A DNA stretch of 64,000 bases, taken from the NCBI GenBank assembly GCA_964020155.1, contig OZ026549.1:2718633-2782632 (forward strand). Reading direction: 5' to 3'. Source of the DNA: Chondrilla cf. caribensis (Eukaryota > Porifera > Demospongiae > Chondrillida > Chondrillidae). A program made the translations under genes and the position numbers. Shown here one piece after another: positions 1,059-64,000 of this stretch (positions are counted from its first letter, which is position 1; every line of letters starts with the position of its first letter). The notes below the pieces were generated by a model, which worked only from the letters and a program-made list of their open reading frames with translations, did no database searches and was not told the origin of the DNA.

Positions 1059-4000
1059 ATGAGCTACATCAAAAGAATCTTTTTGATAAGTATTGTACTC
1101 TATATAACAATTACAACTGCCTTTTCAGGTGAGTTTGATTTCCAAACAATTGAACCTAAATTACGGTGGGATACTTGGTTAGGCCAGACCACAATTACTG
1201 TGGGAATTGGTCCAAGACAGAGACAGTGAAAGGGGCTCCACTAGCCACTTTGCCTATTCACTCATTCAGTTCTGTTCATTCTCATCAACATTATGGCATT
1301 AATGCTAGTGATTTGATAAATAACTTGTCCAGCACTTGACATGTGCATGCAGCTATCTGCTCATATGGTTATACCTACCTAGCGTAGCGATACCATATTC
1401 CGGGCACAAAATGGTTCAAAATGGATAAAGTTGGATAGAGTGTGTATTGAAACTGACTTAAGGTACATTTAGATTAATCTTCTATTCCTTCATTCCGACA
1501 TATTCTGTACTTCGCAGAAATATCCTCTGTTTCTGCCACCAAGCTAGTGTTTCTATAACGCTGCGTCATTTTCCCTATAGGGAAAATGATGCGGCGTTAT
1601 AGAAACACATATTCCCGGCCATTTTCTTCTGAAGTCGGACAGTGGTCTCGACAGTATTTTAGAAGCTGCAAATCACAACGTAAAGGAGGGAGATGTGCCG
1701 AACAAAATTAAACAGTCTTGGTATACCCAGATAACGCCTCGAAGATCCTCTTAGTCAGCGTTACGAAGGTTAACATACGGAAGATGTTGTGTCACGTTGA
1801 ATGATTCCAAAGGCCGCTGCTGCCTGCGCAAGGAGCATTTTCCGTCTACCACCATCGTTACAGCCTTGTATTGATCGATTTTTTGCGATCGCATGTGCCA
1901 TAAATTGCAAATTCAACAAAGCTGCACCATTCATTATTACCGTACGACAATTGGTATGAAAATGCAGCTAGTTTGGATATTTCTCTGTAACTAGCCTCCT
2001 TTTACTGGTGTACGCTTTTGAGTACTTTAAAACTGATGCTGGTAATCTTATGTTCACCGTAAATTAATTGGTAACTCAATGCCTATTTGGCAGGTTGAAG
2101 AAATATGTATATATACTACTTAGCTTCGCCTCTTTCCGCAATGTATCGTGCAATAAAATATGATCATTGCGTCATTCCTTGATTAGTGTATATACAGCAA
2201 CACCAGCGTTCTTCGCAGGACGACTGCATTATAAATTGAATTTAGATTGTTCAAATTTCCACCAAATATGTTATCGCGTTGAAAAATCCGACTGTTAATC
2301 GATGTTACCAAGCAGGTTTTAAAAGTGTACGAACACAGGCATTGTCCGGGATATTGCATACCTAATAGCTACCTCTACCCAATCACTAATAGAATAATAA
2401 AAAGACTGTACGGATGCCGTTTCACGTCTCCGTCAGTCCCCATCACTTGATTTGTATCATCATCGCAAGCTTAATACGATGATAAGTACGTAAATACAAG
2501 GATGTTTTGTTTAATTCAAGAATGATAGCTTTCTTATTCTGTATGCAGCGACCTCTCTACTAGATTTATAGTCTAAACATACACATAGACAGTGCCCATT
2601 AATCCGTATGCCAAGACGATCCTTTCACTTACCTACGTGTAAACTGATGTGCCACGTATGGTGACCATATGTTTGAAAGTTATTTGGATGAAATCGAACG
2701 TTTATTAAAATTTTGTTCCACCATATCATAGATACTCAAACGCTACAGTACAGTTTTCACGCTCTAACCATAGAGGGTTCAGGGTCATTATTCCAACCAT
2801 ATCAAACATGCGCTTGAGTTTGTCTATAGAATCTGATACATTGCTCAGTGAATCGGATATTTTATAATGCCAAGTCCAAAGTGGTAACCGTGTATTTAAA
2901 ACGCAAAGATTGGAGCGAGAGAAATTTGCGTTGACATTCTTGACAGACAACTATAAACTCAAGTACATACTGACTGGAAACCAAAAACCAAGCAGCATTA
3001 TCATAGACATTTGCATGATATCAATGTCATAGGATAGCCATAATAGATTCCGACATTTGTCATGATCACTAACATGGCAGATCAAATAAGAAAGTGATTT
3101 CATGAAACTACATGGGTTTGGTTGATGGGAGAAGTACAATATTCATAGATTCTGGTGATCTCCATCATGTATGGGTTTGAAGTTTGGGATTTAATATTAA
3201 TAATTATACTCTCACATATTTCAAAGACCATATTATTTTTACATTTCAAGTATCTAAACTTTATACATACATGAAAATAGGAACACATCAATCTAAAAGT
3301 GGTTTGGAAAGATGATGATCAGTGATACAATTAAGGTAATTTAATCCCTTCAAGTATTCGATTATGTTTAATTGTTGACCTTATTTGCACTTGCATCCCT
3401 CCACACACCATAAGCCTGGATATATGACAAAGCAACGAACATGTGTTGATATAAACACAGCCAATCTATATTCCTGCAGGGCCTTTGCCAAGGGCCAATT
3501 GACGCTCAACCTCCCTTGAAAATTTACACACACACACAAGCACACATGCACACACACACACACACACACACACACACACACACACACACACACACACACA
3601 CACACACACACACACACATACACACGTACACAAACACATGCACACAAACACAAACACAAACACAAACACACACTCGCATGCGCGCGCGCACACACACACA
3701 CACACACACATACGCATGCATGTATGCATGCACTCACACACAGAATCTGTGATATATTATGATGATTAATGACAATTTTGATTAGACTGGAGCAGCTGAA
3801 AAATAAACTTTAATTCAATTGAATACTCACATACCGTTAATTTTTACGTTAAAATGTCAAGCCTTAGAATAATGACTGAGCCTTTGTTCACGTCAATTAG
3901 GCTGCATAAACATCATAATAACTGAACTGAAAATTGATTCTCTAAAAATGAGATTCATTAACAACAAAATAGATAAGTACCGAAAAGTACTGTAACTGAA

Positions 4001-63500: not shown

Positions 63501-64000
63501 TATAATTTTATCATTATAGGAGGACATGTCATCCACAGTTATGGGAGGCTTGTCCACCGGGAACATGTAATCACTAGAGGAGATCAGCTCCTACCACCTG
63601 GTGATGTAACAGCCCCTGGAAGAATGGACTGTATAGGAACTGCACCAGAAACTGCTCGGTTTTTATTTACCGGTCCCAAACCACCCAACATTATATTTTC
63701 TCAAAGTGATGACGATGGTGATCAAATGACTACTGTATTCTTCAACCGATCTCACCTGTCAATAAACACAGAGGGTTTCTGTCAGGGAGCAAATACATAT
63801 TTTTGGCTCAATTTATTACCAGGTAATACCTACTACTAATAGGTACAACGTACAACATGCAAACATTCAACCATTGCAATTACAGCACCAACTGATATTT
63901 ATTCTGTTGCTTTATTACTGTTTTATCACTTCCTGACAGGTACATTATCCAATGTCACTATCATGAAGGTTGTGCCAAGCACCACTGATGTAAGAATAGT
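60600..64000 (+). CDS. Receptor unit 6, partial: signal peptide, Ig1, Ig2, start of FN3-1 (class A leader)
   Basis: Exons 60600-60669 (signal peptide, MSYIKR start), 63063-63380 (Ig1), 63520-63822 (Ig2), 63940-64000+ (FN3-1, cut by the window edge). All phase 1 and open. Ig1 keeps VCRVSG, NWTCPNGPC and GGTYTC. Ig2 has MDCI and a second Cys in TEGFC, like unit 5 and unlike units 1-4. FN3-1 begins TLSNVTIMKVVPSTTDV, again closest to unit 5. So a class A leader and first intron are joined to a unit-5-like ectodomain. By leader class a short-tail cytoplasmic region is predicted past the edge. Confidence 0.85.
60670..63062 (+). other. Intron 1 of unit 6
   Basis: A 2.4-kb phase 1 intron, collinear with unit 1 intron 1 but without the palindrome's right arm (about 61115) and without the (CA)n tract (about 62730). 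A minus-strand donor-like site lies at 62048-62058. A 60-codon minus frame at 61186-61368 is partly kept in unit 1 but interrupted there. Confidence 0.6.

Follow-up and report, generated by a model that had tools for sequence, protein, structure and literature searches.

The window analysed here, 64,000 nucleotides of the sponge Chondrilla cf. caribensis (C4:2,718,633-2,782,632, C4 being contig OZ026549.1), is probably part of a multigene cell-surface recognition array. COX1 and ND1 of this genome are on contig 37, the presumed mitochondrion; ND1, read with code 4, is 100% identical to that of Chondrilla aff. nucula across 324 residues, with the next match at 87%, so that the source is most likely a Chondrilla demosponge (Verongimorpha, Chondrillidae). 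The window holds six same-strand receptor units, and their intact members are type I receptors with the layout D1-D2-FN3-FN3-TM-tail, in which D1 is an Ig domain, the two FN3 domains are designated FN3a and FN3b, and TM is the membrane segment. A preliminary description, made from the letters alone, had reported six same-strand Ig/FN3 units with tyrosine-rich tails, some intact and some broken, and our gene models bear this out, with three units of each kind. The size of the array, the receptor tyrosine kinases (RTKs) with a like ectodomain, and the division of the tails into two classes, A and B, go beyond that description. We favor the recognition reading because fast change is confined to D2 and FN3a, because one ectodomain pool is carried on two tail classes, and because the motifs of tail B exceed shuffled expectation.

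All six units sit in an array that spans about 0.82 Mb of C4 on a single strand (+). Searching the genome (137 Mb, 37 contigs; all genome-wide copy counts are lower bounds) with the D1 exon of unit 3 identified at least 59 D1 exons on the + strand of C4:2.416-3.233 Mb, with 74-100% identity, of which 10 lie within the RTK part and 49, of the kinase-less kind, lie beyond it. The best 150 of 216 candidates were scored and all 150 matched; the other 91 matches, at 55-64% identity, fall in further clusters on C4 and C2. Tail A gave 25 matches among 29 scored and tail B 33 among 35, equivalent to 22 and 32 distinct loci after neighbouring fragments were merged, all on the + strand of the window's array. 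The same genome search (E <= 0.001) returned neither tail class outside the array, and within it the two classes alternate without clustering over the 54 tailed loci. A search with D2 of a second receptor subfamily, scoring the best 150 of 175 candidates, returned at least 105 matches outside the array at 48-100% identity (two are short fragments), located on C4, C2 (8) and C6 (7), along with 3 weak matches elsewhere and 42 inside the array. Together with the D1 matches in other clusters, this means that the genome holds well over 100 such receptor loci. The second subfamily lies mostly in same-strand clusters, at C4:0.32-0.85, 3.70-3.73 and 4.15-4.56 Mb, C2:3.66-3.70 Mb and C6:4.90-4.96 Mb. 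The single tail read from it, at C4:476001-486000, is of a third type with a repeated QYD...HTxTQPGGK, and that locus has no kinase match.

Nonsynonymous and synonymous substitution rates (dN and dS) were estimated for the kinase-less genes from 14-19 sequences per exon, of about 49 in the array. The dN/dS ratio was 0.43 for D1 and 0.37 for FN3b, and 1.00 for D2 and 0.94 for FN3a; the tails gave 0.48 for class A (5 sequences) and 0.49 for class B (3 sequences). As a neutral yardstick we used the intron between D2 and FN3a, whose median K of 0.15 is near the whole-domain dN of D2 (0.18) and FN3a (0.13), suggesting that these two domains change at about the neutral rate. When only positions that are not conserved in distant relatives were considered, dN/dS was 1.00 (0.79-1.34) for D2, 1.30 (0.84-1.92) for FN3a, 0.75 for D1 and 0.67 for FN3b. 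The filtered D2 and FN3a values are suggestive of diversification, short of proof. In the modules of the RTKs, pooled values were 0.07/0.21 = 0.33 for D1, 0.36/0.67 = 0.54 for D2, 0.31/0.63 = 0.49 for FN3a and 0.24/0.43 = 0.56 for FN3b. The main estimate skipped stop codons alone and kept the copies that carry them, while two stop-bearing copies (one D2, one FN3a) were removed from the site, filtered-position, RTK-module and exchange analyses.

The second line of evidence comes from 14 genes, eight upstream of the window and six within it, whose signal peptides and tails were assigned to types by hand. Signal-peptide class (SP-A or SP-B) agrees with tail class in 13 of the 14 (Fisher p 0.005), the exception being up85660, with SP-A and tail B. 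Ectodomain divergence is not sorted by tail class (permutation p 0.11 for D1, 0.83 for D2, 0.87 for FN3a and 0.58 for FN3b), and the nearest neighbour is of like tail class in 10/14 genes for D1, 9/13 for D2, 6/13 for FN3a and 4/13 for FN3b; one gene was dropped from the last three tests owing to two merged loci. Because the signal peptide follows the tail class but the ectodomain exons do not, a single pool of ectodomain exons serves two tail outputs. In units 1 and 6 a class-A-like membrane segment is joined to tail B, and we interpret these hybrid joins as a visible trace of shuffling.

Seven of the 22 tail-A loci and seven of the 32 tail-B loci were read, with shuffle tests on two B tails and one A tail; the motifs are taken in their usual meanings, as SH2 docking sites, immunoreceptor tyrosine-based activation motifs (ITAMs) and the corresponding inhibitory motifs (ITIMs). 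Five of the seven B tails carry an ITAM-like pair, YEEL-x10-YASL. The unit 6 tail has 7 Yxx[ILVM] sites where 1.4 are expected (P 0.0000, 5000 shuffles) and an ITAM-like pair at P 0.017, and the tail of up85660 gave similar results (Yxx[ILVM] P 0.0000, ITAM-like pair P 0.026). Among the A tails, six of seven have an ITIM consensus and all seven have YxxP; in shuffles of the unit 3 tail, YxxP reached P 0.08 and Yxx[ILVM] P 0.013. Across five A tails, 11 of 13 tyrosine columns are invariant, as opposed to 125 of 212 other columns, and stop-free matches to at least 197 of the 205 tail residues occur at 18 of the 22 tail-A loci. Elsewhere the genome encodes SH2 domains (89 matches among 102 scored), with clusters at C14:1.55-1.63 and 2.02-2.14 Mb; five matches in the first cluster lie beside kinase matches in open frames of equal length (397-411 aa), a Src/Abl-like layout.

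Units 3, 5 and 6 yielded complete spliced models of 707, 713 and 579 residues with GT/AG introns, the last completed with 2.3 kb past the window end. The intact exon order runs from the signal peptide through D1 (318 nt), D2, FN3a, FN3b and a 36-nt linker to a last exon that encodes both membrane segment and tail. Unit 1 is broken by an insert, unit 2 by a frameshift and unit 4 by a stop. The features are as follows.

1059..1128, +, unit 1 (class B, broken), signal-peptide exon, SP-B type
4058..4375, +, unit 1 D1 (Ig) exon
4776..5075, +, unit 1 D2 exon
5192..5506, +, unit 1 FN3a exon
6781..7041, +, unit 1 FN3b exon
7580..8305 (approximate borders), +, insert of about 0.7 kb with inverted ends, within the unit 1 membrane exon
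8306..8715, +, unit 1 remaining membrane segment (class-A-like) and tail B, with the ITAM-like YEEL-x10-YASL
13012..13081, +, unit 2 (class A, broken), signal-peptide exon, SP-A type
16406..16727, +, unit 2 D1 exon, frameshifted
17301..18021, +, unit 2 D2 (17301-17609) and FN3a (17725-18021)
19529..19789, +, unit 2 FN3b exon
20282..21090, +, unit 2 membrane segment and tail A, premature end (exon start by inspection)
27750..27819, +, unit 3 (class A, intact), signal-peptide exon, SP-A
30115..30432, +, unit 3 D1 (Ig), Pfam Ig_2 above cut-off
30995..31303, +, unit 3 D2, no Pfam match; conserved HSYGRL motif and two cysteines
31420..31734, +, unit 3 FN3a, fn3 22.8 bits (cut-off 25)
32467..32727, +, unit 3 FN3b, fn3 51 bits
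33064..33099, +, unit 3 short linker exon
33236..34051, +, unit 3 membrane segment and tail A (13 Tyr; IVYDQV, three YxxP, YIN, LYTAV)
37679..37748, +, unit 4 (class B, stop in D2), signal-peptide exon, SP-B
38759..39076, +, unit 4 D1
39507..39809, +, unit 4 D2, in-frame stop
39929..40243, +, unit 4 FN3a
41557..41823, +, unit 4 FN3b
42177..42637, +, unit 4 membrane segment and tail B without the ITAM-like pair (putative exon start, by inspection)
50585..50657, +, unit 5 (class A, intact), signal-peptide exon, SP-A
53057-53374, 53469-53789, 53894-54184, 55147-55428 and 55725-55760, +, unit 5 D1, D2, FN3a, FN3b and linker
56308..57128, +, unit 5 membrane segment and tail A
60600..60669, +, unit 6 (class B, intact, extends beyond the window), signal-peptide exon, SP-B
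63063..64000, +, unit 6 D1 (63063-63380), D2 (63520-63822) and start of FN3a (63940)
Next 2.3 kb past the window, +, unit 6 remaining FN3a, FN3b, linker, membrane segment and tail B

Conserved domains were searched for in units 3 and 5, as the preliminary description had proposed. D1 passed the Pfam cut-off (Ig_2 in unit 3; Ig_3, Ig_2 and ig in unit 5) and FN3b clearly matched fn3, while FN3a fell just under the cut-off and D2 had no Pfam match. The fold of D2 is probably Ig-like, as judged from a weak model, and its HSYGRL motif and two cysteines are also kept in other sponge-like proteins. No second copy of the unit 1 insert was found in the roughly 295 kb of loci searched.

Five RTK genes lie at the 5′ end of the array (C4:2.41-2.48 Mb, in 200 kb fetched), each with a membrane segment and tyrosine-kinase exons, and their ectodomain is the D1-D2-FN3-FN3 module twice. 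A string of kinase pieces from two of the five matched Pfam PK_Tyr_Ser-Thr. A genome search with one kinase exon, scoring the best 150 of 302 candidates, gave 146 matches; among those listed were the five RTKs, none further along the array and none in C4:0.32-0.85 Mb. This search placed no kinase match near the window genes, and so it is the five 5′-end genes, not those of the window, that are Ig-domain RTKs. The first of them (C4:2.4216 Mb) has a kinase exon that reads DFV, not DFG, and is possibly a pseudokinase. The next-closest kinases among the matches listed are on C19, at 77-79%. At the one C19 locus examined (C19:1349001-1359000), the kinase is 3′ of Calx-beta domains, their membership of one gene being putative, and the array's kinase therefore seems to occur with different ectodomains. 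Calx-beta is a main domain of sponge aggregation factors.

Comparison of the RTKs with the kinase-less genes points to exchange between them. D1 differs by a dS of 0.23 and D2 by 0.84, while the introns flanking D1 have median K values of 1.07 and 1.23, near saturation. Relative to dS among the kinase-less genes themselves, dS between the two groups is 1.40-fold (1.11-1.85) for D1 and 1.59-fold (1.32-1.95) for FN3b, as opposed to 3.91-fold (2.91-5.47) for D2 and 4.70-fold (3.49-6.45) for FN3a. This pattern suggests that D1 and, to a smaller extent, FN3b have been exchanged as single exons between kinase and kinase-less genes. Alternatively, the D2-FN3a block may have been homogenised recently among the kinase-less genes, and both may hold.

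Two protein searches, each scoring about 8000 candidates that share most words with the query, returned 3 and 22 proteins. The closest named relative among these is a kinase-less protein of Halisarca dujardinii, A0AA96MNW2, which is 41% identical to unit 3 across 59% of the query. It shares with unit 3 the D1-D2-FN3-FN3-TM layout and the lack of a kinase, and its tail has, by eye, motifs similar to those of array tail A in the same order (HYYS, YDxV, LYxxVDK). Judged by sequence, the array genes appear to be a sponge family of their own, otherwise seen in Halisarca, a JGI metagenome protein and twelve ENA reading frames, most of which resemble D1-intron-D2 read-throughs. One of these frames, P0007, has a best second-subfamily D2 match of 91% (best 150 of 173 candidates scored; C4:3728687 and C4:484643 compared), and its source appears to be another individual or another species, which makes it a possible starting point for the study of variation between individuals. 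No cnidarian-named match occurs among the 3 and 22 proteins, most of the 22 being unnamed.

In layout the array resembles several known systems. Vertebrate paired Ig receptors (KIR/LILR) place one ectodomain type on different signalling tails, lie in tandem arrays and exchange sequence from member to member. The Chondrilla array shares the first two properties and probably the third; it differs in showing no charged adaptor residue by eye, in a tail-A ITIM not above chance and in the uncertain fold of D2. The likeness to Hydractinia Alr noted in the preliminary description holds for the array: both are tandem clusters of type I membrane proteins with Ig ectodomains, with broken copies and with phosphotyrosine-motif tails (ITIM/ITAM for Alr, in the available part of PMC12065747). 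The FN3 layout and the RTKs set the Chondrilla array apart, and the likeness is drawn without direct comparison to Alr sequences. According to the same part of that source, the fester co-receptors (FcoR) of Botryllus schlosseri comprise 53 loci of type I Ig receptors in which the ectodomain can change independently of the output motif of the tail, be it ITIM, hemITAM or core Yxx[ILV] (PMC12065747). FcoR and the array thus share a large multigene set and one ectodomain type on alternative tyrosine-motif tails. FcoR, as described there, has Ig and sushi domains, whereas the array has Ig-D2-FN3-FN3 and RTKs of the same ectodomain, and Pfam scans of the unit 3 protein and the window exons gave no sushi domain. 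FcoR also has an adjacent cognate partner gene, FF; the spaces between the Chondrilla units were read as lists of open reading frames only. A Geodia cydonium RTK with Ig-like domains (cited in the available part of PMC12018476) is likewise a sponge RTK with an Ig-like ectodomain, likened here by description and not by sequence; unlike it, the window genes have no kinase, and the array RTKs carry the Ig-D2-FN3-FN3 module twice.

We read the array as working like the Botryllus FcoR or Hydractinia Alr clusters, a likeness and not a shown homology, and several observations weigh against this. The D2 and FN3a ratios are about 1 and not significantly above it even at positions unconserved in distant relatives, just two single sites reach p < 0.05 (uncorrected), and relaxed constraint would look similar. 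Three of the six window units are broken. Within 8 kb, 9 of the 54 tails lack an upstream D1 and 5 D1 exons lack a downstream tail, a pattern that a share of partial copies would produce. The ITAM-like pair is absent from two of the seven B tails read, the ITIM consensus of the unit 3 A tail is no more frequent than chance (P 0.20, shuffles), and no charged residue that could pair with an adaptor was seen by eye in the membrane segments. The tail class of up134723, scored here as B, is uncertain, since pieces of tail A and of tail B both lie within that gene. In the accessible part of a graft transcriptome study of Amphimedon, no adhesion-gene enrichment is reported and the words immunoglobulin and tyrosine kinase do not occur (PMC5450542). 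The recognition role first proposed from the layout is supported in part, by that layout, the fast D2/FN3a change, the shared pool and the tail-B motifs.

These points bear on other explanations. Dozens of near-identical copies, broken copies and dN near dS in two domains are unusual for developmental receptors, and their presence in the array, together with the ratio of five RTKs to 54 tailed loci, counts against a sponge adhesion or developmental family in which the receptors would be cell-type or tissue address labels, the kinase-less copies would tune or sequester the RTKs, and diversity would reflect division of labour among paralogues. That explanation draws on the RTKs of like ectodomain within the array, on FN3b, which matches FN3 domains of adhesion proteins, and on the Halisarca relative with its A-like tail; we consider it unlikely, if still deserving of weight. 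The preliminary description had held that assignment to a known housekeeping adhesion family would tell against recognition, and no such assignment emerged: named adhesion proteins (an L1/NCAM/DSCAM test, best ~8000 candidates scored) cover 4-13% of the query.

We regard as more doubtful a largely neutral birth-and-death expansion, with duplication and gene conversion raising copy number, D2 and FN3a relaxed, and few copies functional. It would account for ratios near 1 with limits spanning 1, for the broken units, for tails without D1 and D1 without tails, and for low synonymous divergence among copies. It fits poorly with D1 and FN3b of the same genes holding at 0.37-0.43, with near full-length, stop-free tails at most tail-A loci, and with tail tyrosines that are better kept than other positions. 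Very improbable, and already disfavored, is a family of insulin-like or other growth-factor receptors. The database name of A0AA96MNW2, 'Insulin-like protein receptor', and the five array RTKs speak for it, but the domains listed for that protein are Ig and fn3 only and do not support the name, unit 3 likewise has Ig and fn3 in Pfam with no receptor-L or Cys-rich domain, and the window genes lack a nearby kinase.

Under the recognition reading, the most likely use of the array is to discriminate conspecific tissue or microbes, and we make no choice between these. We hypothesize that D2-FN3a would form the ligand-contact surface, kept diverse, while D1 and FN3b would serve as a constant scaffold or a surface for a common partner, their likeness maintained through exchange at the scale of exons. 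The receptors would cluster on meeting a ligand carried by a second cell or by a particle, and their tail tyrosines would be phosphorylated by the cell's SH2-bearing kinases or by the RTKs of the array acting in trans. Signalling from tail B would then pass through its repeated YxxL-type sites and ITAM-like pair, and tail A would dock other SH2 adaptors through its YxxP, YxN and ITIM-consensus sites, such that one specificity may have two different readouts, much as paired receptors do.

Sponges distinguish self from non-self tissue (as stated in the accessible part of PMC5450542), and a 2025 review, in its available part, describes how allorecognition works in invertebrates as a mystery and sees no candidate proteins conserved across sponges, cnidarians and ascidians (PMC12065747). 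Population RNA-seq for C. nucula is public (PRJNA1413336, 24 BioSamples, two Aegean populations, per the available part of PMC13294930). We speculate, as a bolder and rather unlikely extension, that this could be the first molecularly defined sponge allorecognition or immune locus, with natural killer-like logic at the base of the animals, in which a fast-changing ectodomain pool is placed on two perhaps opposing tails and on RTKs, and D1 exchange keeps kinase and kinase-less members able to pair. In any case, RTKs and kinase-less tyrosine-tailed receptors share one ectodomain type within one locus. If the recognition reading is true, the array would be a named locus for which D2-FN3a is predicted as the contact surface and two outputs are predicted as well, all testable in a sponge with such public data.

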